Shown: positions 24,957 through 47,653 of the stretch, piece by piece
Position numbering within the stretch: position 1 is the stretch's first letter
Layout of the letters: every line of letters begins with the position of its first letter
Assembly (NCBI GenBank): GCA_028045305.1
Contig: JAOFTV010000002.1
Location: 1 to 64,000, forward strand
Direction of reading: 5' to 3'
Length of the DNA: 64,000 nucleotides
Source: Opitutales bacterium
GTDB lineage: Bacteria > Verrucomicrobiota > Verrucomicrobiia > Opitutales > Seribacteraceae
Program-made: the position numbers and the translations under genes
The notes under the pieces: model-generated
What the model was told of the DNA's origin: nothing
Seen by the model: the letters and a program-made list of their open reading frames with translations, nothing else
Databases searched by the model: none

Positions 24957-27900
24957 TTACTTTGTGGTCATCACATAAACACCATCCCAGTCATCCCCCG
25001 GTGGGTTTTCTTTCATTATTTTACAGCGATCAATCAAGATCATGGACGGATTGTCCTTAACTCCAGGCGTAACACCGGGCTTATTCGGTTCCATTTCTTT
25101 CGCTTTCTCAAATAGGTTAAGGGCACCATCCCAATCCTGTAATAAATACTTATCAATTCCCTGCTTAAAGCAATCCAAGCAGTCTTGTGTTTCTTGAGTT
25201 AATTCGGACATAAAACCAGTTGGTTCATACATCGCGACTGGCTGGGATCTTCCCTTCACTACAATTTTGTCCAAATAGCGGAAGGCAATGTCATCCTTAG
25301 TGGTTTCAGAGGCAAGCATGGTTTCTTCAGTAACCATAATATATGCGCCATATGCTTTCGCACCACTTTCGCAACGGGCGGCTAAATTCACCATGTCTCC
25401 CATCATGGTATAGTTGAACCGATCCAATGCCCCCATGTTACCTACGGTGGCGGTTCCAGTGTTACATCCAATACGGGTTTGCATTTGAGTGACAAGTCCA
25501 TGACACTTTCCCCACTTTTCAACCTCGGGCACCCACTTTTCTCGAAGTGAAATTTGTCTTTGCTGCATAAGTATGGAAGTTTTTACTGCTTGATAAGCAT
25601 GATCTTCCATAGGGATAGGTGCACCATACATGGCCACAATTGCATCTCCTATGTATTTGTCTAGAGTACCTCTTTCCTCCTGCAAAATATTGGTCATCTC
25701 GGTCAAATATTCGTTCATTAAATCAACCAGACCCGTAGGAGTGAGAAGTTCCGAAAAACTAGAAAACGCCTGAACATCACTAAAAAAAGCAGTAATTTTC
25801 GTCTCTTCACCTCCAAGCGATGGCTCTTTTCCCGAAGCAACCATCTCTTCAACCAAATCGGAAGAAACATAACTCCCGAACATTCCCTTCAATCGACCCT
25901 TGGCTTTTTGCTCGATTACCACCATTGCAGCTAGTCCAATAAATGAAGTACTTAGCCCCGCACAGGCTGGTGCGGTGATAGGCCAAATTACATGAGATTG
26001 AGAAAAGGTTTCGAACCCCAATAACACATATGCAACCAATAGGATAATTCCAGCTGCCTGTACGATACTTGCACGCTTACCCTGATAAACCGCGAGGAAT
26101 GCCATGAGCAGGCATACGGCTAGAGTAGCAAAGTGATCAACCTTAACAGGTAAGCGATGTATGAATTCTCCGTTTGTCAAAGTTTTGATCAAATTTCCAT
26201 GAACACTCACCTTGGGGACAACCGAACTATCAAAAGGGGTAGGCGCCAAGTCCTGAAAAGTTTTTTCCTCAGGACCCACCAAAACAATGGCATCTTTGAA
26301 GCATTCAAAAAACTTGTTAATTCTCGCCATTTCCTCCTGTTGTAGAACAAGGTTGGCTTTATTTTCAATAATCGCAGTTTCAATTTTACTTTTTTGTGCC
26401 AGAAGTTTTTCGTTTTTTGGATCTGCTTCTAGTGCGGTTTCTATTTTCTCTAGGTACTCTGGGCCGTTCAAGCGTTTAATAAATTCGGTCAGAGAATTTA
26501 AATTTTCCGATACTTGCTCATGAAATCTACCGTAGTCCAAAATGTCCTTCATCCCACACATCGGGTTGTAGGGGGATAGGACGCTAGGAGGAATAAAGTA
26601 GTAAGCAATTCCGTTAACAATAGCTCTTAACTCCTCAAAGTTCGGAATATCAAGATCACTTGGCTTTCCATTGATTAATCTGGTCGCAAAATCCACTAAT
26701 TCCGGATCGACTCCAAGCACCGTCATAGTGCTAGGCATTTCGGAATCAGCTTTGGGAAGTTCAAGATCCTCTACTCGATGTAGGAATAGCCTGATAATTT
26801 GCGGAGCAAGGCCTAGATACTCGACCATATTCTGATCTCCGTAAGCTCGTTTTGCTTCACGAATCAATTTTTTTTCAAGCAATTTGTTCGTCCAAGAAGA
26901 AAACCAGTTTACCTCCAACCACTGATCTTCCTCCAGTGGGGCTTCCACTAGAACAGTTCCATCCTTAGCAATCACAGATAAAAGTGTTTGCTCCTTCGAT
27001 ATACGAACATCCTCGTGAGACAAATTGTAATAAGCAAGGAGGGACTCCAAACCCAGCGTATATATATTCGCCTCCTTTATCAAAGGCATCACATTGGGTA
27101 AACTATTTACAAGTTCCCCAGGTCCATCTTCTCCACCCTCTATCCGGTAGACCAAGCGCAGAGTGTCCTCATGTTCGACTAACTCCGTATCAGCCTTTCC
27201 CTCTAAGCGTTCAAGCCTTGTTTTCTTTTCATTGTAAGTGTTTTCAATTTCGGCACGAGCTTCTTGTAATTCAGAGAGTTCAAGAGCTGCAAGACCAGTT
27301 GCTGGAACTAATTGTTCAAGTTCTGCCTTCTTGTCTGTCAGAAGATTAGTCAAATCATTAAACAATGCGGTTTTTTGTTCATTGCTGAAAAGATTTCCTT
27401 CGGTGGAAGAGGATGATTGAACAATCAATTCCTTAAGTTCGTCCCGTCGTTTTTTGCGCAAATCCAGTTGTGGACTGATTACTGCAGAAAGCCCTGGATT
27501 AGCCTTTAAAGTATTGGAGAAATTTTCTATTTGTTGAGAGATTCCAGCAAGTTCCTTGGCCCATTCAGCCGCATCATTTCCACTATCCATGCCAGGAGAA
27601 AGAAGCGACTTTACCTTACGATAAAGTTCATTTTCTCTAACCTTTCTCGTTTGAATTTGGGCATCAAGAAGAGATGCCAGGGAAGGATTAGCCTTAAGCG
27701 TACCACCAAGAGTATCGATTTCCTCGTTTAAAATATCCAATGATTTAAACAGCTCATTGATCGTTGAAATGCTATCTTCTGTAAGGTTTTTTTGCTCACT
27801 CTTACTCGCGAGCCCGAATGTTGCTTTGTCTAATTTATCCTCCAAAGATTGAGCCATTGTCTGCACTTCAGTAAGTTCAATCTTCAATTGTTCTATTTGG

Positions 27901-28691
27901 GATGCATTATCTCGTGGAAGCTCAAAACCTAATACACTTCGCTTCCCGCCAAGTACATTGTACGCATGAGCTTTGCCCCCCGCAGGAAACCACAATGGAA
28001 CCCATCTTGGTATTTCATCAACAGCCCGAAAAGGTGGAACGGTAAAAGAACCCATCCTTCCAATATAGACACCGTCGCTAAAACTTTGCAAAGGATAGGT
28101 AGGGGCTTCTGGATAACTAAACTTTCCCGATGCTTGCGAGTATCCATCCACAAACATGGGGGGAAATGCACTCGCTTCAATTGACTTAACAAAAGGAGTC
28201 GGAACTCCAGAATATAAACAACCAAGAACAACTTTGTCAGGAAAACTTGCAACCAGATCTCCCATGGCCAGATCACTTCGATAGGAGTTTTCTTTGGGTA
28301 CCATACTCGACATACTTTTGGGGGTAAAACCAAAATCAAAGCCGATGGATCTTGCTTTCCCTTTTTCCAGCAAAGTCATTGCTGTGTCACGGAAAAACGC
28401 ACGATCCCAAGGTCTTTCCCCTACTCCATCCATCGACAAGGTTTCGGCATCAAAATTCACATAAGTAACTTTGGGAATTCTTGGAACCGAATAATTTCCT
28501 TCTACCTTAACCATGTCTGCAGCATCGATTGTAGAATTCTGAGGAATCTCTCCACGGTAGACCATACGCCAATCCACGGTCTTAGTCTTCAGATAATCCA
28601 AGTATCCAAAGTGATTAATTGCCATCCAGATTACAGGAATGGGCAAAAGGGCGAAAAAGGTATTTCTGGATTCTTTACTTAGCTTAAACAT
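24957..28691 (-). CDS. CHASE2-sensor class III adenylate/guanylate cyclase with coiled-coil insertions
   Basis: 1244 aa. N-terminal TM (about 11-28), first half of a CHASE2 sensor (about 70-250, VNFDAETL, RPWDRAFF, IGFDFGF), then a predicted coiled-coil insertion (about 262-505). The closing CHASE2 block (FKDAIVLVGPEE, then TPFDSSVVPKVSVHGN) lies near 800-845. Three TM helices (about 855-930) lead to a class III cyclase domain (about 955-1150) with the two metal Asp motifs FFSDVQAFS and DKYIGDAIVAMYG and the NYTMMGDMVNLAAR block. A TPR-like C-terminus follows (WDGALNLFEKAKEMEPN). It should make cAMP or cGMP in response to a periplasmic signal. The insertion carries internal repeats (TLKANP). 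It stands alone, with a divergent promoter region shared with moxR. Confidence 0.9.
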   Translation of the reverse strand: MFKLSKESRNTFFALLPIPVIWMAINHFGYLDYLKTKTVDWRMVYRGEIPQNSTIDAADMVKVEGNYSVPRIPKVTYVNFDAETLSMDGVGERPWDRAFFRDTAMTLLEKGKARSIGFDFGFTPKSMSSMVPKENSYRSDLAMGDLVASFPDKVVLGCLYSGVPTPFVKSIEASAFPPMFVDGYSQASGKFSYPEAPTYPLQSFSDGVYIGRMGSFTVPPFRAVDEIPRWVPLWFPAGGKAHAYNVLGGKRSVLGFELPRDNASQIEQLKIELTEVQTMAQSLEDKLDKATFGLASKSEQKNLTEDSISTINELFKSLDILNEEIDTLGGTLKANPSLASLLDAQIQTRKVRENELYRKVKSLLSPGMDSGNDAAEWAKELAGISQQIENFSNTLKANPGLSAVISPQLDLRKKRRDELKELIVQSSSSTEGNLFSNEQKTALFNDLTNLLTDKKAELEQLVPATGLAALELSELQEARAEIENTYNEKKTRLERLEGKADTELVEHEDTLRLVYRIEGGEDGPGELVNSLPNVMPLIKEANIYTLGLESLLAYYNLSHEDVRISKEQTLLSVIAKDGTVLVEAPLEEDQWLEVNWFSSWTNKLLEKKLIREAKRAYGDQNMVEYLGLAPQIIRLFLHRVEDLELPKADSEMPSTMTVLGVDPELVDFATRLINGKPSDLDIPNFEELRAIVNGIAYYFIPPSVLSPYNPMCGMKDILDYGRFHEQVSENLNSLTEFIKRLNGPEYLEKIETALEADPKNEKLLAQKSKIETAIIENKANLVLQQEEMARINKFFECFKDAIVLVGPEEKTFQDLAPTPFDSSVVPKVSVHGNLIKTLTNGEFIHRLPVKVDHFATLAVCLLMAFLAVYQGKRASIVQAAGIILLVAYVLLGFETFSQSHVIWPITAPACAGLSTSFIGLAAMVVIEQKAKGRLKGMFGSYVSSDLVEEMVASGKEPSLGGEETKITAFFSDVQAFSSFSELLTPTGLVDLMNEYLTEMTNILQEERGTLDKYIGDAIVAMYGAPIPMEDHAYQAVKTSILMQQRQISLREKWVPEVEKWGKCHGLVTQMQTRIGCNTGTATVGNMGALDRFNYTMMGDMVNLAARCESGAKAYGAYIMVTEETMLASETTKDDIAFRYLDKIVVKGRSQPVAMYEPTGFMSELTQETQDCLDCFKQGIDKYLLQDWDGALNLFEKAKEMEPNKPGVTPGVKDNPSMILIDRCKIMKENPPGDDWDGVYVMTTK

Positions 28692-29862: not shown

Positions 29863-29912
29863 TCGTATCCGCTAAACAAGCCTGTCGATTGGCCAAGGAT
29901 AAGTTAGTACCA

Positions 29913-30842: not shown

Positions 30843-31459
30843 TGACCTTATTCATCTCGTCTAAAAAACCATACCTTCTCGACCCCAAAATAGAGACGGA
30901 TACACCCTTGCCTGTTTTCAAATCAGTTTCTGAAATTTTAGGCGAACATATTTGGTGGATTACATTCCTTGCTCTTTTACTTATAGGACTTTCGGTGATA
31001 TGGATTTGGAAAAAAAGACTGAGCGACCGCCCCACTGAGAAAGTAGAGGCTCCGAGAATAGACCCATATGAAGAGGCAATGAGAGAGCTCGATGCCTTGC
31101 AATCTCTTAATCCTCAGCCTTTAGCGAAGCCTTATGTTTTTAAGCTGTCAAAAATCCTCCGGCTTTATGTGGAGAGAAAATTCAGTCTACCCGCTCTTGA
31201 ACAAACTGGAGAGGAATTTATCCGGGAGGTCTTGGTGCATCCTTTTCTTCAAAAAAATTTTGAACAACCCCTACGGGCATTTGTAGATAAAGGAGATCGT
31301 ATCAAATATTCCCCAGTATCCTGTGATGGTCATGAGCTAAAAGAATTACTGGAATCAGCCAAGTCCTTCATTCACAGTGCTCAGTCAAAATGGGAAAAGG
31401 AACAAAGCCCCGAAGAAGTTAAGGAAACTCTTTCAGAAAAGACTTACAAAATTAGATGA
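30842..31459 (+). CDS. One-TM DUF4381-like protein of the Bat operon
   Basis: 205 aa with one TM helix (about 37-58, WWITFLALLLIGLSVIWIW) and a cytoplasmic or periplasmic helical tail. The tail has an LSKILRLYVERKFSLPALEQTGEEF block like the DUF4381 proteins that sit between DUF58 and VWA genes in many Bat operons. The start overlaps the DUF58 stop; its TGA overlaps batA. Function unknown; membership is inferred from position and pattern. Confidence 0.72.
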   Translation: MTLFISSKKPYLLDPKIETDTPLPVFKSVSEILGEHIWWITFLALLLIGLSVIWIWKKRLSDRPTEKVEAPRIDPYEEAMRELDALQSLNPQPLAKPYVFKLSKILRLYVERKFSLPALEQTGEEFIREVLVHPFLQKNFEQPLRAFVDKGDRIKYSPVSCDGHELKELLESAKSFIHSAQSKWEKEQSPEEVKETLSEKTYKIR

Positions 31460-32514
31460 ACAATTGGTTCGAAAACTTTCTTTTTGGGGAACCTGCTTGG
31501 GCTGTACTTCTCATTTTACTTCCCTTGCTAGCTTTGGTTCGAAAAAAAAGGGGTAATGGCATTAGGCCAGCAATTAGATTCGCTACCATTTCTCAGTTGC
31601 CCAATACTTTTTCCCAAAAAACAAAAAAGTGGATTTGGCTGCCCTCCCTTTTACGAACCTTGGCATTAATCTGCATGATTGCAGCACTTTGTCGCCCACA
31701 ATTAGACAAAAGTACACGCACTGTTTTTTCCAGTGGTGTAGATGTTGTACTTGCGGTCGACCTCTCTGCCTCGATGCTCGCTTTAGATATGAGCGAAACT
31801 AGAAGCCAGGAAGTTACCCGCCTGGATGTAGTTAAAGAAGTACTCAAGGATTTCATCGACAAAAGAAAACATGATCGCATTGGATTGGTCGCATTTTCAG
31901 TCGCACCCTACCTAGTTAGTGCTCTTACTTTGGACAAAGAACATCTCCATAAAAACTTAGAACGGTTACGAGTAGGCCTTACCCATGAAACAGGAACCAA
32001 TCTTGGGTCTGCATTGGCTGAAGGAATCAACCGTCTGCGACCGCTTCAGTCCAAGTCAAAAATCCTTATTCTACTAACAGATGGCAAAGATGAGCCCACA
32101 CCTCCACATAGTCCATTAATTTTTGCACACGGAGCCAAAGAAGATGGAATTAAAATTTACACCATTGCCATTGGTACCAACACACAAACAAGAACCTACC
32201 TGTTCGACCCATCCACTCGAGATTTACTGCGGGCTCAAAATGGTCTTCCCATTGTTCGTATGGCTCAGTACCCAGTGGATGAGGATATATTAAGCAACAT
32301 TGCCAAGACAACTGGAGGGGCATTTTTTCAGGCGAGGGACGAATCTTCCCTAAGATTGATCTACGAAGAAATCGATCGCTTGGAAAAAACAGATGTCGAA
32401 ATGCAAGTAAACGCACTCTTCGATGATCTTTATCTTTGGCCACTTGGAGCCGCTATCCTTTTACTTATTCTTGAATTTATTCTTTCCCGCACAATTTATC
32501 TTAGAATTCCATGA
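31456..32514 (+). CDS. batA: BatA-like VWA protein
   Basis: 352 aa. TM segments near 12-27 and 55-75 and a C-terminal one (about 315-335) flank a VWA domain. The MIDAS metal site is VDLSASML (DxSxS), with ETGTNLGSALAEG and LLTDGKDE completing it. This is the usual topology of aerotolerance protein BatA: two N-terminal helices, periplasmic VWA, one C-terminal helix. Four-base overlaps on both sides show tight coupling. The name rests on synteny; the cellular role outside Bacteroides and Leptospira is not well defined. Confidence 0.85.
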   Translation: MNNWFENFLFGEPAWAVLLILLPLLALVRKKRGNGIRPAIRFATISQLPNTFSQKTKKWIWLPSLLRTLALICMIAALCRPQLDKSTRTVFSSGVDVVLAVDLSASMLALDMSETRSQEVTRLDVVKEVLKDFIDKRKHDRIGLVAFSVAPYLVSALTLDKEHLHKNLERLRVGLTHETGTNLGSALAEGINRLRPLQSKSKILILLTDGKDEPTPPHSPLIFAHGAKEDGIKIYTIAIGTNTQTRTYLFDPSTRDLLRAQNGLPIVRMAQYPVDEDILSNIAKTTGGAFFQARDESSLRLIYEEIDRLEKTDVEMQVNALFDDLYLWPLGAAILLLILEFILSRTIYLRIP

Positions 32515-34931
32515 GTTATTTCGTTCGGCCAGAAATTCTTTTTTTGATTCCCTTGGTAGTAGGAATTTTACTCTTCCTCCATTTTCGAAGTCGCAAATCT
32601 GCAAAGAAAAGGATTCGTCTTCTTGTTGCCGAGAAGTTTCAAGAAAAGTTGATCCCTCTTCTTTCTGGCAAGCGAACCTCGGTCAAAACCGGTCTTATCC
32701 TTACATCAACTACATTTGCCATCCTTGCATCCTCCGGTCCCCAATGGGGTTCATCGAAAAGATCCTTATCACCCAAAGGCATTGATTTGTTGATCGCTGT
32801 AGATGTGTCAAAAAGTATGCTTGCCCAGGATGTTCCACCTAATCGCCTGGAAAGAGTTAAACACATTTTATCCAATCTACTCGAGCATGTTACAGGGGAT
32901 CGACTTGGACTAATCGTTTTCTCGGGCACTTCATTTCTGCATTGTCCTCTTACCTTGGATCATCAGGCATTTTCAAAAACGCTCAACGAAGTAAAAGTTG
33001 GCCTGATTCCTAAACTTGGTACAGACTTGGCACAGCCCATAGATGAAGCAAGAAGATCATTCTCAAAGGATGACCAAGACAAATTTTTGGTTTTAATATC
33101 TGACGGCGAAGATCTCGAAGGGCGTGGACTTATGCAGGCCAAGGAAGCGGCAAAAGAGGGTATTCGTATCTTCACAGTCGGTATCGGTTCAGCAGAAGGT
33201 GCCCGGATTCCCGAAAAAATAAATACGAATGATTTTCTAAAAGACAGAAAAGGGAATGAAATCCTCACTAAGCTCGACGAATTGTCACTGAAGAAGATAG
33301 CTCAAGCCACTGGTGGACGCTATGTTGCCCTCGGGTCAACGGGGGAAGGTTTGTCCCATATCTTTTCCGAACTTCAATCCATTGGCCAAAAAAAACGCAG
33401 AGAACAATTATCTACTGAATTGCCAATCGATCGTTTCCAATCTTTCATTCTTGTCGCATTTCTCTTCCTTATTTTTGAATCATTAACGACTTCAGCAAAG
33501 ATTAAAATAGCCCGCGGAACTCTTCATAGTTTACTCATATGCATAACCTTGTTCGGGGGGTGCCTTTTGCCAGACAATGTACAAAAAGCAGAAAAAGCCC
33601 TTGCTCAAGGACTGCCCCTTGAAGCAGCCAATCATTACCTTGCTGAAATCGATGCAATTAAAAGGAAAAAAGGGCGGCCCGAATCCAGCCTATTACTCAA
33701 CATAGGACTGGCGTATTCCCGTGGTGGTGCTTACCAAAAAGCTGAAGAATTTTTAAACTCTGCCCTTGATCAATCCGACAGCCCGGGTTTGCACTCGAAA
33801 GCCCTTAACGCACTTGGAAACTTACATTACCGCATGGCCAACAACTACCTTGATCAGCAAAATGTCAACTCAGCTAGAAAGACTTGGGAACAGGCATTAA
33901 ATCATTATCGAGAGGCTTTATCTTTGGACGGCAATAAAAAGGCTCAAACAAACCTCGAATCTTTAAACCGCCAAATTCAAGGGCGCATAGAGTCAATGGT
34001 TTGCAAAATGATGGGACTTGTATGGAGAGATATTGACGGAAATGGAAAAAAAGATTCAAACGAACCTTTTCTCAAGGCTCATATATTTTGGGACAAGGAC
34101 GGGAATGGAGAGATGAACGCCACCCTCGAACCCTCAATTCCAACTAACGAAGAAGGCCAATTTGCCTTCGAATGGATATCAGCTGAATATCCTGCAAGCC
34201 TCCATCTTGGTTCGGTTCTAATCGATAATAACCAAAGCAAGGAATTAAATGTCTTACTTCCCCTATATCCACCGCCTCCACCACCTTTTGATTCCACACA
34301 AGCTCGAAATTACTATGTGGATATTCCCTCATCCGGGTCTCAATTCCTTCCTATGCCTTGGCGTGCAGCTCCAATTATTAGAGGAAAAGTATGGAATGAC
34401 ACCAACCAAGACGGAAAGTTTGATGCGAACGAAAGCGGTCTAGCAACTGCCAGCTTATTTTTGGATGAAAATGGAAACTTGCAACCAGATGAAAATGAAA
34501 CATCTTTTAAGCCGTCTCCAGAGGGTGATTTTGCACAAGTCGTTCCGCCAGGGCAATATTCATTGTGTATAAAACCAGACTCCCCAAATGGCAGGGTCAC
34601 TTGGCCTGTTGAAAATAATAACGCCTACCTGACTTGGGTAAATTTTGAAAACTCACCGGATCCATTACTTTTTGGAATTTTCGATCAACAAGCAGGTAAT
34701 AATTCATCTCAATCTGAACAATCCGAAAACAAAGATCAGGATGATGGTCAATCAGGTGAGAATAAACAATCGAACTCGGGCGATGAGAATGTAAAAGAAT
34801 TGGCGGAACCCACACCCGATGAAGTCAGCGGTCTATACGAACGACTACTCCAAGAAATGGAATCTAAAAGTGAGCCTTTGCCACAAGAAATCCAATCAAT
34901 AAAGGCGGTGGGAACCGGTCGAGATTACTAA
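32511..34931 (+). CDS. BatB-BatC fusion: VWA + TPR + SdrD-like repeats
   Basis: 806 aa. Residues 1-330 are a BatB: TM near 8-25 and 55-75, MIDAS AVDVSKSMLAQDVPPNRLERVK, GTDLAQPIDEA, SDGEDLEG, then a TM (about 305-325). A second hydrophobic stretch (about 340-352) after KIKIARG ends in TLFGGC, which resembles a lipobox. Then TPR-like helices (about 355-500, LLLNIGLAYSRGGAYQKAEEFL) as in BatC. Two Ca-binding-like repeats follow, GLVWRDIDGNGKKDSNEPFL (about 502) and GKVWNDTNQDGKFDANESGL (about 624), resembling SdrD B domains. The C-terminus is acidic and Gln/Ser-rich. The fusion and the repeats are unusual for Bat proteins. Confidence 0.85.
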   Translation: MSYFVRPEILFLIPLVVGILLFLHFRSRKSAKKRIRLLVAEKFQEKLIPLLSGKRTSVKTGLILTSTTFAILASSGPQWGSSKRSLSPKGIDLLIAVDVSKSMLAQDVPPNRLERVKHILSNLLEHVTGDRLGLIVFSGTSFLHCPLTLDHQAFSKTLNEVKVGLIPKLGTDLAQPIDEARRSFSKDDQDKFLVLISDGEDLEGRGLMQAKEAAKEGIRIFTVGIGSAEGARIPEKINTNDFLKDRKGNEILTKLDELSLKKIAQATGGRYVALGSTGEGLSHIFSELQSIGQKKRREQLSTELPIDRFQSFILVAFLFLIFESLTTSAKIKIARGTLHSLLICITLFGGCLLPDNVQKAEKALAQGLPLEAANHYLAEIDAIKRKKGRPESSLLLNIGLAYSRGGAYQKAEEFLNSALDQSDSPGLHSKALNALGNLHYRMANNYLDQQNVNSARKTWEQALNHYREALSLDGNKKAQTNLESLNRQIQGRIESMVCKMMGLVWRDIDGNGKKDSNEPFLKAHIFWDKDGNGEMNATLEPSIPTNEEGQFAFEWISAEYPASLHLGSVLIDNNQSKELNVLLPLYPPPPPPFDSTQARNYYVDIPSSGSQFLPMPWRAAPIIRGKVWNDTNQDGKFDANESGLATASLFLDENGNLQPDENETSFKPSPEGDFAQVVPPGQYSLCIKPDSPNGRVTWPVENNNAYLTWVNFENSPDPLLFGIFDQQAGNNSSQSEQSENKDQDDGQSGENKQSNSGDENVKELAEPTPDEVSGLYERLLQEMESKSEPLPQEIQSIKAVGTGRDY

Positions 34932-34935
34932 GATT

Positions 34936-36726
34936 TTGAAATACTCATTCCATTTTTTCATCATCCTTTTTGGAACTTCTATCTGTATCTGGGGGCAAAA
35001 CAATAATCTTAGGGTGGAAACTCTTTTTGAACCGGCCACCATTACCCTGTCTAATTCGAGTATTTACAAAATTATTATTCATGGAAGTCAGGAAAGTCCG
35101 GTTGGGTCGGTACCCTCTGTCTCCGGGTTGCAATTTTCCAAGACTCCCCGAACATTTCGTTCCGCATCTTTTATCAATGGCATACCCGCAGTACGATTCG
35201 AACTTTCATTCGAAGTCAAACCTCAACGAGAAGGCACTTTTAAACTTCCAGCATGGAACCTCAGGGTGGGCAAGCAAACCTGCCAGGCACCCTCGACTAC
35301 CCTTCGGGTTCTACCTCCCAGTCAAAGAGACAAAGTTCGACAGGCAGAGCAAAAAAAACGCAACCAAGACCTAAGTGAAGCTGCATATTTAGATTTTTCA
35401 ATCACTCGGCCTTATATGTTTGAAGGAGAGACCATGGAGGGCCAAGTAAGCCTGAATATTTGGAATAGGTTGCCGGTTACGAGAATAGATAGAATACCGA
35501 CCAAAACTGGCGATGGCTTTTCCATTACTGAACTCGGGCAACCAGTTGAAAAAAGAAATGTTCCTAAGAATGGAAAAAACTATAATTCATACAATTGGAA
35601 ATTTGGCATAACCGCCGCCCTACCTGGCATACAATCGATCTCCTTTTCATCCGTTCTCAGAGTGCGGGTGAAGCAAAACCGGAACTCTCCTTTGGGCAAT
35701 CCGTTTTTCAGTGATCCATTCTTCGGCTTTGGAAGCGAGGAAGGCTTAGAAGTTGGCTCAGACCCATTGACGGTTGAAGTTCGATCCCTACCCACCGATT
35801 CGCGCCCCAAGGGATTTGCTGGTGCCATTGGAATCTTCACCCTCGCTTCCGCAATCGACAAAGACCGCGTGTCCCTTGGTGACCCTGTTCGCCTTACCTG
35901 TAAAATAAAGGGTAAAGGAAATTTCTCAGCTATGCCCGCCCCTACTGTATCCCTCGGAGAAGATTTTAAAGTTGGTCCACCCGCATTTAGTTTTGATGGT
36001 TCTACATCCACCCTCCATCAAGGCGTACAAAGTTTTGAGTATGTCATCACGCCGTTGCGACCTGGATTGCTGGAAATTCCACCCATCCCAGTTTCATTTT
36101 TTAATCCAGATAACGAAGTTTATACCAGCCTAACCTCCTCGCCACATCCTTTGCGCGTTGATCCAGGCGAAAAGTGGATGGAACCATCTTCAGTAGAAGT
36201 CAGCCAATCGGATGAGAAATCCACAAGCTCGGCAAATAATATGTTTCAAACGGAATCGGAACCTGGAGAATGGGTATCGTCCATCTCAATAGAGGACCCC
36301 CTTTCATCGAAGATGTTTTGGGGTGCACAGGCAGTTGGACTTCTACTCTTTTTGTCCGTTCTCTTTTTTAGGCTTAAAAACCGGAACCCCTTAATGGAAG
36401 AGCTAAAACTTAAGGACAGAGTACTCAGTAACAAATTGCGGGAAACGGTTAAGCACAAGGACCGTGCTGGCTTTTATAAATCACTGCGACGAAGGATTCG
36501 CCTACGAGCAAGCATGGTATGCCCGGGTGCCAATCCTTCTGCCCTTTCCAACAAGGAATTGTTGGCCCTATTAAAAGCTCGCGGATACTCTCAAAATCTA
36601 CTTGATGAGATTTCTAAACTCCTGCAAATCTGCGAGGATCATGAATATGCTGGGGGTGTCAAAAATACAGATTCTCTCGAAAGCGAATTATCCCGGTCAC
36701 AATCCATCATTCGCAAACTCAAATGA
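34936..36726 (+). CDS. batD: BatD-like periplasmic protein
   Basis: 596 aa, TTG start four bases after the preceding stop; the N-terminal KYSFHFFIILFGTSICIWGQ is a Sec signal peptide. The body is beta-sandwich-like with the BatD block FEGETMEGQVSLNIWNRLP-type and a GDPVRLTCKIKGKGN segment. A TM near 462-480 (AVGLLLFLSVLFF) precedes a helical cytoplasmic tail. BatD (oxygen tolerance) proteins have this topology. Function inferred from family and operon. Confidence 0.82.
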   Translation: MKYSFHFFIILFGTSICIWGQNNNLRVETLFEPATITLSNSSIYKIIIHGSQESPVGSVPSVSGLQFSKTPRTFRSASFINGIPAVRFELSFEVKPQREGTFKLPAWNLRVGKQTCQAPSTTLRVLPPSQRDKVRQAEQKKRNQDLSEAAYLDFSITRPYMFEGETMEGQVSLNIWNRLPVTRIDRIPTKTGDGFSITELGQPVEKRNVPKNGKNYNSYNWKFGITAALPGIQSISFSSVLRVRVKQNRNSPLGNPFFSDPFFGFGSEEGLEVGSDPLTVEVRSLPTDSRPKGFAGAIGIFTLASAIDKDRVSLGDPVRLTCKIKGKGNFSAMPAPTVSLGEDFKVGPPAFSFDGSTSTLHQGVQSFEYVITPLRPGLLEIPPIPVSFFNPDNEVYTSLTSSPHPLRVDPGEKWMEPSSVEVSQSDEKSTSSANNMFQTESEPGEWVSSISIEDPLSSKMFWGAQAVGLLLFLSVLFFRLKNRNPLMEELKLKDRVLSNKLRETVKHKDRAGFYKSLRRRIRLRASMVCPGANPSALSNKELLALLKARGYSQNLLDEISKLLQICEDHEYAGGVKNTDSLESELSRSQSIIRKLK

Positions 36727-37535
36727 ACCACCGTTCAACCGCACTCTGGCTACTTCTTACTTTTGTACTGCTGTACTCAAAAATATTTGGGGAATCTGGT
36801 GACCGGGCTTTTTACGATGCCGTGCGTGCGGAAGCCTCCGGAGATTTGCAACTAGCCAGATCAATCTATGAAGAATTGGCTAAAAATCAGCACTCGGCAA
36901 ATCTGCACGCAAACTTGGCAAATTTATATTTCAAGCTGGAAGACTATGGAAGGTCCATTCTCCACTTTCGAAAGTCCTTACTCCTTAATCCTGAAAATCG
37001 GGAATCTATTTCCAATTTGTCTTTTGCCATGGAAATGAGTGGCGTTAAAAAAGCTGAATCCCTAAAGACTAACCCCGCCTTTTCAGCTACTGCTCAGTTC
37101 ATTTGGGCCAGTTGCTTCACCATCTTGTTATGGGGAGGTTTTTTACTAATCGCCTTGCTTGTTCCAAGACGCTTAAACTCGACTACTCTGACAGGCTATA
37201 CACTTCTTTGGGCAGGCACATTAAGCTTTTTAGCATGGGGGTGGCAGGAATCGAGAGAACAGTTTAATTTTCTGCGAAGGGAGGTCATCAGTGTAGCAAT
37301 TAAATCTGATGGTAAAAACGCACCAGTTCCCCTGCGCCGTTTTGCCGGTAAAGGAAGTAATTACAATACCATGGTCAACCCAGGAACTAGTCTATTTTTG
37401 GATCTTGATCGCTCGGGTAACCCCCGAATGCACCAAGGACCAGATGGGGAAAAATGGTTTCTTGCTCGAAGTAAAGATGGAGCAAACAAAGGTTGGATTA
37501 CTGAGCTTGAATTTGGAAAGATTATAGAACTTTGA
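36723..37535 (+). CDS. BatE-like protein: TPR, two TM helices, SH3-like end
   Basis: 270 aa. Signal sequence (about 5-22), TPR pair (about 25-100, LARSIYEELAKNQ, LHANLANLYFKLEDYGRSILHFRKSLLLNP), TM near 118-142 and 150-165, and a C-terminal SH3b-like region (about 195-265) ending in KGWITELEFG. This matches BatE proteins, which combine TPR and SH3 domains. It overlaps batD by four bases and ends the operon, converging on dnaX. Confidence 0.8.
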   Translation: MNHRSTALWLLLTFVLLYSKIFGESGDRAFYDAVRAEASGDLQLARSIYEELAKNQHSANLHANLANLYFKLEDYGRSILHFRKSLLLNPENRESISNLSFAMEMSGVKKAESLKTNPAFSATAQFIWASCFTILLWGGFLLIALLVPRRLNSTTLTGYTLLWAGTLSFLAWGWQESREQFNFLRREVISVAIKSDGKNAPVPLRRFAGKGSNYNTMVNPGTSLFLDLDRSGNPRMHQGPDGEKWFLARSKDGANKGWITELEFGKIIEL

Positions 37536-41231: not shown

Positions 41232-41318
41232 GCCGGGGTGGCGGAATTGGTAGACGCGCTAGATTCAGGTTCTAGTGTCTGAAAAGACGTGCGAGTTCAA
41301 ATCTCGCCCTCGGCACCA
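41232..41318 (+). tRNA. tRNA-Leu (CAG anticodon)
   Basis: 87 nt including encoded CCA. Acceptor GCCGGGG pairs with CCTCGGC. The D-arm is GCGGAATTGGTAGACGCG. The anticodon stem CTAGA/TCTAG encloses loop TTCAGGT, giving CAG. A class II variable arm (about 15 nt, GTGTCTGAAAAGACGT) and a T-arm with GTTCAAATC follow. The long variable arm and CAG identify Leu. Confidence 0.96.
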
Positions 41319-41423: not shown

Positions 41424-44400
41424 ATGAAAAATCTTCATTTACTACTAGCACTTATTTGTGCGAGCATTATTATTATACCAATCAATTCTTCATTCGCACA
41501 GGATGGAGATAAAGAAGGCGACGCCACAGATGGTGGTGCTTCCGGCACTTCTACAGGTGGTGAAGGTGGAGGTGACGCCGCACCAGCGGCTGCGGCTCCC
41601 GCCGCTGGTGGTGAAGGTGGTGGTGATTCCGCTCCTGCAGCATCAGCTCCTGCACCAGCTGCTGCTGCTCCCGCCGCTGGAGGCGACACAGCACCCGCTC
41701 CTGCAGCTCCGGCACCGGCCGCTGCGGCTCCAGCTCCCGCCCCTCAAATTGCCGCCCCGGCTCCAGCACCCGCTGCCGCCCCATCTTTTGATATGGGTGC
41801 CGCAATGACCTCGACTGCTGCGGCTCCCCCACCTGCTGCTGTTGCCACTGAAAGTAATTCCGTAGCAAACGCAGTAAAGGTATCCGCGGCAAGTGGAGGG
41901 TCACTCAGCCTCTCAGATGCTGTCAAGATCGGTGCATCTGCCATTAAAAAAATAGCCAATGATAAAACTGGTGGTGCAGCTTCTTTTGCCAACCTTGCAC
42001 GAAACATTGATGCCAAAACCAAGGTAATCAAGGCATTTGGTGGTATTGATGATCTCAGTAAAATTGATGACATCATTCAGCAAACTGAGTCTTTTGATGC
42101 AGACCAACTTGAATCTTTTCAGACTTTATCCCTTGACGAAGCAATATCCCTCAAATCCAAGTCTTCCTCAGATGGAGGCGGATCTTTTGATATTGCTGAC
42201 ATTGGCAAAATTGCAACCAAAGCCAAAGAAGCTAAAGTTCTCAAAGATAATGGCGTCACTCTTTCCACTGAGAATCTTAGTGATCTAAATAATAAGTACG
42301 ATGCTACCTTCATCGAAACTGCCAAAGACTTCACACTTGATAATTTGGGGTTAGTTTTTGATACCCAAGGAGCCGATGCTTTTAGCTTGGCTAATAAGGA
42401 AACCTTCAAGGAGCAGGCAGAAAGTATCAAAACCATCCTTGACGCCGGAGGTTCTGCGGCAGAGATTAAGAGTGAATTAAGCAATGTAATTCTTAAAGAT
42501 GCCAAGGGTTTACCACTGGTTATTCAAAGTGGCGATAGATATGTTTGGTCCTCCGATGTGACCAAGGGTCGAATATTTCATGGAGTATTCAGTGACTTCG
42601 AAGATGGTGAGGGAGAACTTGGAATCTTCAAGATTGCGTTAGACACAACAGGAAAAGCCAAAGGACTTGATATCATGGGTGGTGATTATGGCGATAATTG
42701 GGAGGAAACCTTTGTCCTCCAATCCGATCAATCCATTTTGAAGGGAACTGAATACGATGAGAACGGAAATCCCGAGGAAGTATTCTTCATAAGGGTGCTT
42801 AAAGGTACAGATGGCAAGCTAGTGCTTGGAACAGTAAGTTTCGAAGCAGATGAAGACTTGGACGATTATGAAATTGCTAGAGGTGAGTTACCATTTTCAA
42901 AATTAGATACAGCCGAAGGAAAAGCCAGGATTGCATTACTTGGTGCGGCTACAACTGAAGCTGATTTGATTAAAAGCAACATGAACGATTCCGTCGTTTT
43001 GTTTGGGACTGAAGCAGACGCCTTGAAAAGATATAACACTCTTTTCGATGCGAACGCCAAGGTAGAGCTTAAAGATGAAAATGGTAAAGCAATCATTGTT
43101 AGCATGGGAACTGAAAATGATACTGAGTATTATTGGGCTCGTGAGCTCGACGGTGTAAAAATGCGTACTGCAGTTGGTTCTAAAAATGATTCACCTGATC
43201 AAGAAGTTATTAATGCAACCGCAACTGGATGGACAAGTGGTTCTGATTCTGGCACCTACTCCAACAAAGGGAAAGTTATCGTCACAACTGAAGTTATTGG
43301 AGGGGTTACAGAAACTTCTTACCACCGTATCATTAAGGATTCAAACGGTTTTAGAATGATCAATATAACAAGGACCGACGGTAAAAACCCTTGGGATGCG
43401 GATGAAGCACTTTGGGATAAATTCCTTTGGTGGGATGATTCCTACTGGGCAAATACAGTTGTTCCTGGGGTTGATGGATCAGGTAATTGGCAAAACGGGG
43501 GTGAAATTGAATACATTGCCGGTACCGCATCCGAAGCCACTGCCCTCTTCAACATTCTAGTTGGACTTTGGCACAACGACGATCCAAACCGCAAGGACAC
43601 TGACGGTGACGGAATCCCTGACTACAAGGACATTGACCAAAACGCTGGTGCTAAAGACTCGGATGGGGATGGTATCATTGATCAATACGATAATGACAAG
43701 GCACACAAAGTGACCTTAGACCAAGTCCTGAAGGATTTGTTCCCTGCTGATGATGGTGCCGCATTCCTAGCGAAAATTGAAGGAATGAATAAGGGAACCG
43801 AGGCAAGTCATAATGCAGTTGCTGCCACCGTGGAACTCATTGTTAAGATTCTCAAAAACAGAAACCTTAACGGCACAATCGATGTCGGGAATTCTGACTG
43901 GGTAAGCATGGCAGATTTGGATAACTTAGTTGTTCCTGATCAATTTAAAAACTTAATATCCCAAGCTAATCTGATTGGTACGAGTTCAAACAAGGAGGCT
44001 ATTACAAACTTCCTGAATCAATTCACGGATAATAGTGATTTTAATTTTAAACAAGATAAGACTCTTCAAAACTGGGCACCCCTGCTGGAAGACTTGCTTA
44101 CCTCAAACGATGAAACTGGTGAGGACAGTTCCAACCGGGCCCGACTGAGCAACAACTTTATTTCGCGCTCTGATGACCTCTCCAAGCACAAACCAGGAAA
44201 TGCGGACAATTCTCGTGGCCTTACTTGGAACCTTGACGAACCCGACCAAGGCAAAAAGATCGATCTTAAAGTACTCTCAGGCAGCGAGGTAACCATCGCA
44301 ACAGGTGTTAAATTTAATGCTCAAGCTACCGACCGTACAGATGTAACCATCATTGCTGCCGCAAAAGATGTAACGATTGGGTCTTCTAACTCTGCATCGG

Positions 44401-45071
44401 ATCAAGTAGTGACAATTGACACTCCGGATTGGGAACCTGGCAGACCCCAAGGCGATGAAGATGTCTATGTGATTGCTGCTGCAGATGATTTGCAGTTCCG
44501 CTCGAAAGCAAGTGGGTCTTCTGCCGATTACAATAATCCCCAAAGGTTAGAATTAGAAATTGACCACTCCTCCCTCGCTCTTGCATCCACCGACACCATG
44601 TACATGGTAAATGTGGATGTTAGCACTGGTGGTGGATTGGCAATCTCCACCTTGGACGATCTCAATATCTACAGCCAAGATGGTACAGACAGCGAATTTG
44701 ACATCGGAACCAATGGAAATGATTTCGAAAGCTTGTACTTATACGCTCAGAACGAGATTAATATCCGTAATCTTTTGGTTAAAGGACATGTTGACGATGT
44801 CTACATGGAAGCTAAAACCATAAATCTTTATGATGTTACCTTCCCTAAATCTGCTGCTGTTCTTTTACGCTCCGAACTCGGAAAAATGACTTTTGAATCA
44901 ACTCCATTACCTGGATATGTGAATTTTAATAATGTAGTTCACAAGGGTATTCGTGGTTCTAAAATCCTCTCAACTGATTTCAGTTCAAATGCGTCCGGTA
45001 CAAACCATAAAACCGGCAATGGTGGTTCTGGTCGTCCTCACATAGAGGTACAAAACTTCCGCAGTAATTAA
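41424..45071 (+). CDS. Large exported protein: Ala/Pro-rich, thrombospondin-type Ca repeats, beta-rich C-terminus
   Basis: 1215 aa. Sec signal peptide (cleavage likely after SSFA), then a low-complexity Ala/Pro/Gly region (about 30-145) of AAPA and GGEGGGD units. A helical region follows (about 150-365), then a repeated WSSD / YYWARE-like region (about 380-690). DTDGDGIPDYKDIDQN and DSDGDGIIDQYDND (about 730-760) are thrombospondin type 3-like Ca-binding repeats. The last 300 residues have regular VTIIAAAKDVTIGSS, VYVIAAADDLQF and LYLYAQNEINIRN strands typical of a beta-helix. I recognise no named family for the whole. It leads a block with an outer-membrane barrel, a FecR-like and a Sel1/MORN protein, so a surface or secreted structural role is likely. 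Confidence 0.8.
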   Translation: MKNLHLLLALICASIIIIPINSSFAQDGDKEGDATDGGASGTSTGGEGGGDAAPAAAAPAAGGEGGGDSAPAASAPAPAAAAPAAGGDTAPAPAAPAPAAAAPAPAPQIAAPAPAPAAAPSFDMGAAMTSTAAAPPPAAVATESNSVANAVKVSAASGGSLSLSDAVKIGASAIKKIANDKTGGAASFANLARNIDAKTKVIKAFGGIDDLSKIDDIIQQTESFDADQLESFQTLSLDEAISLKSKSSSDGGGSFDIADIGKIATKAKEAKVLKDNGVTLSTENLSDLNNKYDATFIETAKDFTLDNLGLVFDTQGADAFSLANKETFKEQAESIKTILDAGGSAAEIKSELSNVILKDAKGLPLVIQSGDRYVWSSDVTKGRIFHGVFSDFEDGEGELGIFKIALDTTGKAKGLDIMGGDYGDNWEETFVLQSDQSILKGTEYDENGNPEEVFFIRVLKGTDGKLVLGTVSFEADEDLDDYEIARGELPFSKLDTAEGKARIALLGAATTEADLIKSNMNDSVVLFGTEADALKRYNTLFDANAKVELKDENGKAIIVSMGTENDTEYYWARELDGVKMRTAVGSKNDSPDQEVINATATGWTSGSDSGTYSNKGKVIVTTEVIGGVTETSYHRIIKDSNGFRMINITRTDGKNPWDADEALWDKFLWWDDSYWANTVVPGVDGSGNWQNGGEIEYIAGTASEATALFNILVGLWHNDDPNRKDTDGDGIPDYKDIDQNAGAKDSDGDGIIDQYDNDKAHKVTLDQVLKDLFPADDGAAFLAKIEGMNKGTEASHNAVAATVELIVKILKNRNLNGTIDVGNSDWVSMADLDNLVVPDQFKNLISQANLIGTSSNKEAITNFLNQFTDNSDFNFKQDKTLQNWAPLLEDLLTSNDETGEDSSNRARLSNNFISRSDDLSKHKPGNADNSRGLTWNLDEPDQGKKIDLKVLSGSEVTIATGVKFNAQATDRTDVTIIAAAKDVTIGSSNSASDQVVTIDTPDWEPGRPQGDEDVYVIAAADDLQFRSKASGSSADYNNPQRLELEIDHSSLALASTDTMYMVNVDVSTGGGLAISTLDDLNIYSQDGTDSEFDIGTNGNDFESLYLYAQNEINIRNLLVKGHVDDVYMEAKTINLYDVTFPKSAAVLLRSELGKMTFESTPLPGYVNFNNVVHKGIRGSKILSTDFSSNASGTNHKTGNGGSGRPHIEVQNFRSN

Positions 45072-45102
45072 TCATAATTTTAAAGTCTAGAAACTATTTA
45101 AA

Positions 45103-46065
45103 ATGAAGAAGATCCTAACCTTCACAAGTTTGCTCGCTTCTGCAGCACTCTTATCCGCACAAAACAAGATCGATCAAACCACGATTGATCGTACCACTAC
45201 TACTCCACCACAAAGCCTTAGCAGTGGTACTGGACCTAATGCAGGAGTGTCTGCAAGTGATTCGGGGGCTCAGCGCCCTGTATTCCTGAATACTAATTTG
45301 CTCACCGCCTTTGCTGGATTTGACGGTACCATAACCTACCGTTCTAACCCTCTCACCCTTCCTGGAGACATGAAACAGGCGAAAACCGGGATTTGGCAAA
45401 ATAGTTTTTCTGGCGGGGCCAGTTTATCCCCTATCGATACTGATGTTGCTGTGGTTACTCCCTTCCTTGGTGGAGGCTGGACAATGTCCGATTATTTAAA
45501 TGATAATCTTTCCACACTCAATGACTATGCTTCCAGTGCCTATGCCTTGCTCATGATTCAACATGAATCGGGTTGGGGCTTTCGTGGTGGAGTAAGTTAT
45601 GCCAATGTTCGTAATAATGATACCGATAGTGAGGACTATTCTGAATTCTATCCAAACATTGGTGCAATGACTACCTACTCGCTCAATGCTGACACCCTCT
45701 CCATCATTGACTTCTCTTGGGGCTATCACTTATCTAAGTCAGATTCCCTGCTCGGTGGAAACACTCAGTCTCTCAACAACTGGGATGCTGCATTCTCCTA
45801 CAGTTTAAGACACACCTATGGCGATTTTGTCATTACACCTAACTACCGCTTAGGCTACAAAAGATTCACCGAAGCAGGGACCATCAATGATGGTAGAAAA
45901 GATGTAATGCACACCCTGTCTATTCGTGCAGACTATCCAATTGCTGATAACCTTAAACTCTCAGCAAACACTTCCTACAGCCGCCGGAATTCAAGCGGTG
46001 GAGCAGGTACTGATTATAAGAACTTTGATGCTGGGGCAACAATTAGCCTCAATGTCAATTTCTAG
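45103..46065 (+). CDS. Outer-membrane beta-barrel protein
   Basis: 320 aa. Sec signal peptide (cleavage after LLSAQ or LLSA), a short Thr/Pro-rich spacer (about 20-60), then amphipathic strands such as SGGASLSPIDTDVAVVTPFLGGGW and FSWGYHLSKSDSLL. The chain ends in ISLNVNF; a C-terminal aromatic Phe preceded by alternating hydrophobics is the BAM recognition signature. It is of the size of 10-14-strand barrels. It sits 31 bases after the 1215-aa gene and could anchor or export its product. A strong hairpin follows. Family not identified. Confidence 0.78.
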   Translation: MKKILTFTSLLASAALLSAQNKIDQTTIDRTTTTPPQSLSSGTGPNAGVSASDSGAQRPVFLNTNLLTAFAGFDGTITYRSNPLTLPGDMKQAKTGIWQNSFSGGASLSPIDTDVAVVTPFLGGGWTMSDYLNDNLSTLNDYASSAYALLMIQHESGWGFRGGVSYANVRNNDTDSEDYSEFYPNIGAMTTYSLNADTLSIIDFSWGYHLSKSDSLLGGNTQSLNNWDAAFSYSLRHTYGDFVITPNYRLGYKRFTEAGTINDGRKDVMHTLSIRADYPIADNLKLSANTSYSRRNSSGGAGTDYKNFDAGATISLNVNF

Positions 46066-46085
46066 GCTTTTCCTGTCTTCAAATC

Positions 46086-46112
46086 GCCCTTGTATTCTAC
46101 AAGGGCAACTAA
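46086..46112 (+). terminator. Perfect 9-bp hairpin after the beta-barrel gene
   Basis: GCCCTTGTA (46086) pairs perfectly with TACAAGGGC (46098-46106) around a TTC loop, 20 bases after the barrel stop. The following AACTAAGGATTTTC has only a weak T tract, so this may terminate inefficiently or protect the 3' end of the mRNA, leaving some read-through to the FecR-like gene. Confidence 0.6.
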
Positions 46113-46124
46113 GGATTTTCTAGC

Positions 46125-46862
46125 ATGCACGGATGTTCCCCGTTTCCACTGCTTTTGTTTGGTTGTATCATCTCCAAATTATGGAGTTATGAAGTAAAAT
46201 ATGCCACCAAAGGGGTGGATCACTTATTCGAACTCAACGGCATCCCAAACGCCTTACCTATTAAAAAAGGGGAGAAGTTAAACCCGAAAGAATATATCAC
46301 CACCGGTCCATCTGCGTTTGTTGAAATTTATCATCATGATATAACGATTAGACTTGGAAAAAATGCGATTGCTGAGTGGGTAGACGCCCGTCACTGGAAA
46401 ATTCATGAAGGATCGAGTCTCTTCTGTTTAGAAGAAAAAGATTCCATAAAGGTTTCCTCTTCCAAAGGAAGTTCAGTTATTACTGGACCTTGTACTTTCA
46501 TTGCAGAAGCCACCAGCAACGGTGGATATAAAATGATTTGTCTGTCTGGACGACCTTATGTTCAATCAGGCCAAAAGAAGTCAAAGATACCCGCAGGTAG
46601 GCTCGTTTTGGTATTAGGAGAAACAAATGCATTGGGAAATGCATACGATATTGACCTTATGCTCCTTCTTAAGTCGAGTCTTCTGATTAATGCTTTTGAA
46701 ACCCCCCCTCCGACTATGAAAAAAATCGGGTTGGCTGTATATTCCCAACAAATGCGCATGGGTGGAAAATACGATGCTCTTATTGGAGATGCCACGACAG
46801 ATAAAAATTTACAAATGTGGGTACTAGGTAAAAAGGGCAAAGATAAGCAGTCAGATAAATGA
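46125..46862 (+). CDS. FecR-domain-like exported protein
   Basis: 245 aa. A short hydrophobic N-terminus (about 5-22, PFPLLLFGCIISKLW) acts as signal; the LFGC within it could be a lipobox but Phe at -2 is atypical. Residues about 30-170 read as a FecR-like beta fold: PIKKGEKLNPKEYITTGPSAFVEIYHHDITIRLGKNAIAEW, then WKIHEGSSLFCL and VSSSKGSSVITGPCTF, matching the FecR pattern (L..G......T...A.V.......RL...S). No anti-sigma N-terminal domain or sigma factor gene is adjacent, so it is not a classic FecR regulator. It overlaps the next gene as ATGA. Confidence 0.72.
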   Translation: MHGCSPFPLLLFGCIISKLWSYEVKYATKGVDHLFELNGIPNALPIKKGEKLNPKEYITTGPSAFVEIYHHDITIRLGKNAIAEWVDARHWKIHEGSSLFCLEEKDSIKVSSSKGSSVITGPCTFIAEATSNGGYKMICLSGRPYVQSGQKKSKIPAGRLVLVLGETNALGNAYDIDLMLLLKSSLLINAFETPPPTMKKIGLAVYSQQMRMGGKYDALIGDATTDKNLQMWVLGKKGKDKQSDK

Positions 46863-47653
46863 TACATCCCCTTTATTCCCTGTTCTACACCATCATATTT
46901 TCATTTCTTCTGTACTTATTACCTAACACTCTTACCGCACAGAAGGCTGACTCTATAGAATTACTCCGAAGGGCAGAAGCAAACCATTTGGAGTCACAGG
47001 TCAATCTTGCCATCATTAGGTCCATTAACGGGAGGCTAAAAGATGCACATTACTGGTACAAAAGAGCAGCAAAGCAAAACCATCCACTAGCTTGCCGAAT
47101 GGTTGGATTGAATCATTTACATGGCAAGGGAGCTAGTAAAAACCCAAACATTGGAGAACGCTGGTTACAAAGATCAGCAAAGTTAGGAGACAAAGAAGCC
47201 ATTCAGGCGCTTTCCAAACATTGCAAAAATCAAAACCGTACCTTGGAAGCAATCGCTTGGCAGTTTTTCATAAAATTTGAAGAATTTGAATATTCCCTGC
47301 CAAGTTGGATAAAACAATCTTCAAACGATGTGATAGAGGATGCAAAAGTACTAGCACAAAAATGGAAGACTCATGGCAAACCCCCACCTTACCCTACAAA
47401 ATCCTATCTTAACAGTACTCCGAAATATCTCGAATTGTACTTACCAAATGGGGATAAATTCGAAGGTATGACCACACAGGGTATTCCTAATGGACCAGGA
47501 AAAAGGTTGGTCAAAGATGGATCATCCTATCTTGGAGAGTTCAGCGAGGGAAAAGAAAACGGATACGGTACTTGGTTTAACCCAAAAGGCCTAATTATGC
47601 GACAAGGCTTATGGAAGGACGGCAGCCCAGTGTTCTCTAACCAATCACAATAA
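46859..47653 (+). CDS. Exported Sel1-repeat and MORN-repeat protein
   Basis: 264 aa. Signal peptide (about 1-27, cleavage after LTA). Sel1-like repeats run from about 30 to 130: AHYWYKRAAKQNHPLACRMVG, then ERWLQRSAKLGDKEAIQAL. Two MORN-type repeats occupy about 195-260: LPNGDKFEGMTTQGIPNGPG and GEFSEGKENGYGTWFNPKG. Both repeat types mediate protein or membrane contact. It is coupled to the FecR-like gene and ends the exported block. Function unknown. Confidence 0.8.
   Translation: MIHPLYSLFYTIIFSFLLYLLPNTLTAQKADSIELLRRAEANHLESQVNLAIIRSINGRLKDAHYWYKRAAKQNHPLACRMVGLNHLHGKGASKNPNIGERWLQRSAKLGDKEAIQALSKHCKNQNRTLEAIAWQFFIKFEEFEYSLPSWIKQSSNDVIEDAKVLAQKWKTHGKPPPYPTKSYLNSTPKYLELYLPNGDKFEGMTTQGIPNGPGKRLVKDGSSYLGEFSEGKENGYGTWFNPKGLIMRQGLWKDGSPVFSNQSQ

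Follow-up and report, generated by a model that had tools for sequence, protein, structure and literature searches.

A three-gene outer-membrane cassette exchanged as a block beside a tRNA-Leu gene in Opitutales, with a candidate link to CHASE2 adenylate cyclases

Three consecutive genes of an Opitutales bacterium, here called BIG, BAR and FEC, form a real and widely conserved outer-membrane cassette, and whole cassettes have been exchanged at a fixed chromosomal address next to tRNA-Leu(CAG). This exchange is the most surprising and best supported new result of our analysis. The genes lie in a 64,000-nucleotide stretch of contig JAOFTV010000002.1 (the window), which is part of a fragmented 2.3-Mb genome. 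We give about even chances to the view that the three products make up one outer-membrane sensor complex, a three-polypeptide Opitutales version of the FecR/barrel receptors that act on CHASE2-domain adenylate cyclases. The cassettes bring a family of exported solenoid-like proteins and barrels, spread across the order and so far without annotation, into a probable connection with CHASE2-cAMP signalling, the ligands and mechanism of which are, to our knowledge, poorly characterised.

Gene layout and predicted proteins

Four ORFs on the forward strand were confirmed, namely BIG (41424..45071, 1215 aa), BAR (45103..46065, 320 aa), FEC (46125..46862, 245 aa) and SEL (46859..47653, 264 aa). BIG and BAR are separated by 31 bases and BAR and FEC by 59 bases, while FEC and SEL overlap by 4 bases, as noted in the first-pass annotation. 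Its proposal that all four products are exported agreed with the signal-peptide-like N-termini found on each of them, the weakest being that of FEC, and its assignment of the fourth gene to Sel1/MORN was supported by a Sel1 Pfam match and by MORN-type repeats visible in the sequence. The same annotation had treated the four genes as one block, and this did not hold, as SEL is separable from the other three in both directions. Protein searches covered 42 genomes of the window's family and found all four proteins. Gene maps of the family, built with a simple longest-ORF caller, gave the site order aroC, a 228-aa gene, tRNA-Leu(CAG), BIG-BAR-FEC(-SEL) and two oxoacid oxidoreductase (OFOR) genes, with the aroC and OFOR genes being what we take them to be from their sequences, read without a search. 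In four genomes (G017, G024, G028, G041) the trio is absent and SEL directly follows tRNA-Leu; the gap is about 20-50 bases in G017, G024 and G028. The sole trace of the trio is a 60-residue FecR remnant in G029 and a 34-residue FecR remnant at a contig end in G039, and three genomes (G001, G002, G005) have the trio and lack SEL. Since SEL occurs without the trio and the trio without SEL, BIG, BAR and FEC make up the natural unit, with SEL as a neighbouring bystander outside the exchanged unit. Synteny in relatives, set beforehand as a test of the block, was conserved for BIG-BAR(-FEC).

The tRNA-Leu(CAG) gene (41232..41318 in the window, forward strand) marks the constant left edge of the site in every relative examined. 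It was considered as an integrase site and rejected; no integrase was noticed, and the tRNA is a constant neighbour that also stands at empty sites. Scans for tandem repeats and promoters were uninformative. Elsewhere in the window, a run of MoxR/BatA/BatB-type genes with VWA proteins, whose families were judged by sight, occupies positions 28849-37535 between dnaX and the CHASE2 cyclase gene described below.

BIG consists of a low-complexity N-terminal region, a lineage-specific middle and a conserved C-terminal domain. No match of BIG, BAR or FEC to a Pfam or NCBIfam model passes the cut-off of that model. The Ala/Pro/Gly/Asp-rich stretch seen in the sequence at 41502..41873 (approximate limits) corresponds to the stalk described earlier. 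The middle region had no relatives in the family search beyond a near-identical sister genome and none in the PDB. Two DxDxDGxxDxxD calcium-type (TSP3-like) repeats are visible on inspection at 43578..43706, as expected from the thrombospondin-type repeats of the first reading, but the Pfam TSP3 models do not match them. The C-terminal domain (residues 767-1213, 43722..45062) is matched by its profile at 3e-93, is order-specific, and begins with a helical part that is followed by a solenoid-like part (about 44262-44930). An AlphaFold2 model of residues 771-1215 (mean pLDDT 69, pTM 0.72) has many short strands, with a pLDDT of about 85-97 across most of residues 1041-1170. The beta-helix-like end proposed earlier is therefore retained as a probable beta-solenoid, which we infer from this strand pattern and from weak matches, although no significant structural match was found in the PDB or among viral models. 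Among the cassettes, BIG ranges from 376 aa (165 aa in a cut contig) to 1784 aa, and only the C-terminal part is common to all. One BIG (L215, 1569 aa) carries three copies of the C-terminal domain, at residues of about 466-579, 756-880 and 1405-1548. An STT3/PglB-type oligosaccharyltransferase gene (1036 aa, L143:747-3857) lies directly before a paralogous BIG-BAR-FEC cassette of the same genome, and given this gene, BIG proteins may be glycosylated.

BAR was modelled with AlphaFold2 on 25 sequences as a 12-stranded outer-membrane beta-barrel (mean pLDDT 77.7 with the disordered N-terminus included, pTM 0.74), and it ends in Phe, in line with the barrel and terminal Phe read from the sequence earlier. 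In the model, the outer loops (5-14 residues) carry the length variation, and the inner turns (2-8 residues) are nearly constant. Directly before strand 1 there is a [DN]xGxQ box (SDSGAQRP, 45256..45279, forward strand) that is conserved in barrels across several families of the phylum. The box SDSGAQRP is 85% conserved, versus 52% for the BAR strands. Boxes of this kind, including looser forms such as SNLGIQ that were read by eye, occur in most barrels found, also in other families of the class. A candidate fused BIG-BAR gene (605/596-aa ORFs, L254/L255) proved to be an overlapping reading frame. In G187, BAR is adjoined by the gene of a 643-aa exported protein (L215:5481-7409) with a VWA-like start, a barrel-like end and a C-terminal Phe, which, judged from the two ends of its sequence, is possibly an adhesin-barrel fusion.

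FEC is a small exported protein for which the earlier label of FecR-like can be kept in part. Pfam FecR matches none of its 26 aligned homologues (0/26), but a chain of profiles links it to relatives that do match Pfam FecR and suggests a FecR identity. The FEC profile extends over the Pfam-FecR domain of L216, a 404-aa protein encoded by a separate gene, as well as the N-terminal part of the FecR-BIG proteins L217-219 and L253, and it also matches the FecR region of L257 and the FecR proteins L270-272. L217-219, L253 and L257 carry FecR and the BIG C-terminal domain in one protein, a fusion that is frequent in other families, and several paralogous BIGs of the window's family start with Pfam FecR (L143, L144, L148, L154). 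In the window's BIG, the FecR region is not recognisable and the Ala/Pro/Gly/Asp stretch stands in its place. A literature search for FecR with Verrucomicrobiota surface proteins returned nothing relevant.

Further genes were observed beside FEC paralogues or cassettes. A 308-aa FEC paralogue at L145 (G000:C16:6000-18000) adjoins the gene of a 1067-aa Na+/H+ exchanger with a cyclic-nucleotide-binding domain, and a gene of the same size lies beside a FEC paralogue in L152, L170, L171 and L173. A TIR-TPR protein (770 aa, L153:3635-5944) is encoded directly after a type B BIG-BAR-FEC cassette, and genes of similar size follow at L146, L155 and L162; these neighbours are possibly defence related.

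Co-inheritance and exchange at the tRNA-Leu site

Profiles of the BIG C-terminus, BAR and FEC yielded 53 BIG-BAR pairs, spread over 35 genomes of the order, and FEC comes next in 40 of the pairs. Four pairs are found in the window's genome (contigs C12, C17, C71 and C72). BIG precedes BAR, and the gaps between them are mostly a few tens of bases. The trees of the three proteins are correlated across cassettes (BIG/BAR 0.84, BAR/FEC 0.93, BIG/FEC 0.87), and when partners were shuffled within genomes, 0 of 2000 permutations reached the observed correlations, which indicates that cognate BIG, BAR and FEC sets stayed together. The 53 cassettes are a compact, naturally varied set for the study of barrel-FecR communication, in which the [DN]xGxQ box is a candidate contact open to testing.

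At the fixed site, the two flanks agree with each other (OFOR/aroC rho 0.89) and flank and cassette do not (OFOR/BAR rho 0.03), while BAR, FEC and BIG agree among themselves (rho 0.48-0.67). Median identity is about 80% for the flanking proteins, compared to 42% for BAR, 46% for FEC, 54% for the BIG C-terminus and 34% for the rest of BIG. For example, G009 and G011 share 88% identity as far as the tRNA and 89-91% from inside SEL onward, with only fragments of 65-73% identity in between. Similarly, the right flank of the window matches that of G001 over 16.3 kb at 90.4%, the left of the site at 71%, and almost nothing matches within the site. Monophyly of the window's genus was rejected in the BAR+FEC tree (AU p=0.0001), whereas the flank tree fully supports the genus. 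These results, read with the caveats of long branches and of MAG assembly, show that alleles have been exchanged as a block, since the cassette tree is uncorrelated with the flanks and rejects the genus.

The same incongruence could in principle come from old paralogues that were differentially kept, or from chimaeras of MAG binning, with no allele exchange at all. Genomes do carry several paralogous cassettes, and their assemblies are of the metagenome type, fragmented, unevenly complete and contaminated by up to 7%. However, most type A cassettes occupy the same address and are joined to both of their flanks within a single contig, FEC and BAR of G001 share a contig with a right flank 90% identical to that of the window, and in G009 and G011 flanks of 88-91% identity abut the dissimilar block at tRNA-Leu and inside SEL. 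Together with the AU result, this makes an origin by paralogy or binning improbable. In a near-identical locus of a relative, identity was 97.8% over 18.5 kb. The sister genome L002 (G007) has 17 small indels relative to window positions 41424-47653 (12 in BIG, 1 in FEC and 4 in SEL) and none in about 11 kb of flanking genes; because its indels are confined to the cassette and SEL, the cassette looks decayed there or reflects a mixture of strains.

A fixed chromosomal address at which whole receptor cassettes are exchanged is the pattern expected of surface recognition loci, and we know of no description of such exchange in Verrucomicrobiota. We tentatively suggest, as a possibility that falls short of even chances, that a hypervariable recognition locus occupies the tRNA-Leu site. 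The solenoid protein, its cognate barrel and its cognate FecR-like relay would be swapped there between species as a block, with phages, predators or kin discrimination as the selective force, and the downstream CHASE2-cAMP relay would remain constant.

CHASE2 cyclases and the weighing of functions

Outside families f1 (the window's family) and f16, a CHASE2 gene was located within about 4 kb of BIG or BIG-BAR in 11 of 11 checked genomes (G042, G086, G092, G106, G153, G171, G187, G345, G355, G463 and G499). As BIG or BAR served as the query that led to these genomes, the CHASE2 neighbour is an independent observation. The genomes contain only 1-4 CHASE2 genes each, and the cassette-linked ones are mostly adenylate cyclases, with that of G499 having no match to the cyclase profile and perhaps another output domain. 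FecR, BAR and a cyclase occur together in three genomes from other families of the class (L270-272). In the window, a homologue of these cyclases, a 1244-aa CHASE2-adenylate/guanylate cyclase (24957..28691, reverse strand), is the proposed effector and lies about 13 kb from the cassette. The f1 cyclase has a long insert in CHASE2, is about 13-15 kb from the cassette site and is present also in genomes without the cassette, so that linkage in this family is weak evidence. No phosphodiesterase was identified in the BIG-BAR loci.

In the sensor reading, BAR would span the outer membrane, its loops facing outward and its N-terminal [DN]xGxQ box facing the periplasm, and the box would most likely dock there on BIG or FEC. 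The C-terminal solenoid would hold BIG to BAR, leaving the variable part of BIG to meet the ligand, and FEC, like the BIG-fused FecR domain elsewhere, would carry the signal through the periplasm to the CHASE2 sensor, upon which the inner-membrane cyclase would respond by changing cAMP. Surface exposure of such a receptor would let alleles diverge fast and be exchanged between lineages as a block, within the interval bounded by tRNA-Leu and SEL. Several observations weigh against this reading. The cyclase of the window's family is neither adjacent to the cassette nor restricted to genomes that have it, and a single cyclase would serve up to four cassettes. The window's BIG has lost a recognisable FecR domain, FEC has no direct Pfam FecR match, and BIG could be located either outside the cell or in the periplasm. 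In addition, NsrA of Sinorhizobium meliloti, the periplasmic part of which is presumably a FecR region, carries that part and its barrel in one chain.

The main rival is a split autotransporter-like surface adhesin, in which BAR would be a dedicated translocator that exports or anchors BIG and FEC a periplasmic accessory, so that no signalling role is needed. The gene order with its short gaps, the 12 strands, the solenoid-like C-terminus of BIG and the great variability of this protein are all consistent with it, and the best solved matches of BAR in Foldseek are autotransporter beta-domains (EspP, BrkA, EstA, NalP). TM-scores of these matches are only 0.40-0.56, however, and as 12-stranded barrels generally resemble one another, the resemblance mostly reflects strand number. 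In addition, BAR has no Pfam autotransporter match, the loci show neither a covalent passenger nor a BIG-BAR fusion, and the association with FecR and CHASE2 is left unexplained; we consider an adhesin of this kind rather unlikely. A porin or polysaccharide-export channel (EpsL, BBP2_2 or KdgM type), with BIG and FEC as periplasmic scaffolds, appears more doubtful still and is improbable in our judgement. It could account for the weak matches of BAR to EpsL (5e-6, in 8 of 27 homologues) and to OMP_b-brl/BBP2_2, but all of these are far below the curated cut-offs and the EpsL match is confined to the C-terminus of the barrel. No polysaccharide genes were seen in the loci, and the tight co-inheritance of BAR with BIG and FEC also argues against a channel. 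With NsrA and the systems of Campylobacterota and Burkholderia described below as published precedents, the sensor complex is the best reading, its mechanism being assigned to the trio by analogy.

Comparison with known systems

The first-pass annotation had suggested that the genes encode a surface structure, its partner in the outer membrane and periplasmic helpers, which fits the trio but not SEL, and had regarded the genes as a candidate for an undescribed system. The latter has to be withdrawn, because the components belong to the described arrangement of a FecR protein, an outer-membrane barrel and a CHASE2 adenylate cyclase, and the trio is thus not an undescribed system from scratch. 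For a secretion system, no evidence was found at the trio. Type Va autotransporters (EspP, NalP, BrkA) share a 12-stranded barrel and a solenoid-like partner encoded just before it; they differ in that the trio has two separate proteins, no autotransporter family match and low structural similarity. Two-partner secretion (type Vb) uses a 16-stranded TpsB barrel with POTRA, whereas BAR has 320 aa, 12 strands and no POTRA/TpsB match. Type IX secretion relies on a C-terminal sorting domain, and no Pfam model matched the C-terminus of BIG or its homologues. FecI/FecR/FecA involves an ECF sigma factor, a cytoplasmic FecR end and a TonB-dependent receptor, whereas FEC is exported and neither a sigma factor nor a TonB receptor was matched among the trio, SEL and the preceding gene.

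Closer likenesses are found among CHASE2 systems. In Burkholderia, the BiofilmReg operon pairs a LysM-FecR protein with a CHASE2 histidine kinase (PMC5192318). The pairing of an exported FecR protein with a CHASE2 sensor is what we propose for FEC, but BiofilmReg has a kinase instead of a cyclase, and neither a barrel nor a solenoid protein is reported for it. In S. meliloti, the rise in cAMP that a protein signal causes through the CHASE2 adenylate cyclases CyaK, CyaD1 and CyaD2 depends on the outer-membrane barrel NsrA (PMC7529298, PMC13001267), and the cAMP/Clr-regulated genes include that of the FecR protein SMc02177 (PMC5498481). NsrA is a single polypeptide of about 1200 aa whose barrel occupies residues 600-1200 (PMC7529298), whereas the barrel, the solenoid protein and the FecR-like protein are separate genes in all of our loci; the likeness is one of components, an outer-membrane beta-barrel and, for the trio as proposed effector, a CHASE2 cyclase. 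In Campylobacterota, a CHASE2 cyclase clusters with a FecR-domain outer-membrane protein, a TPR protein and a phosphodiesterase, and the cluster is horizontally exchanged (PMC9239204). The counterpart in our set is a FecR-like protein and an outer-membrane component, with a CHASE2 gene close to the cassette in families other than f1 and f16; horizontal exchange is common to both. There, however, the cyclase cluster itself moves, whereas here the receptor genes move, in the window's family without the cyclase.
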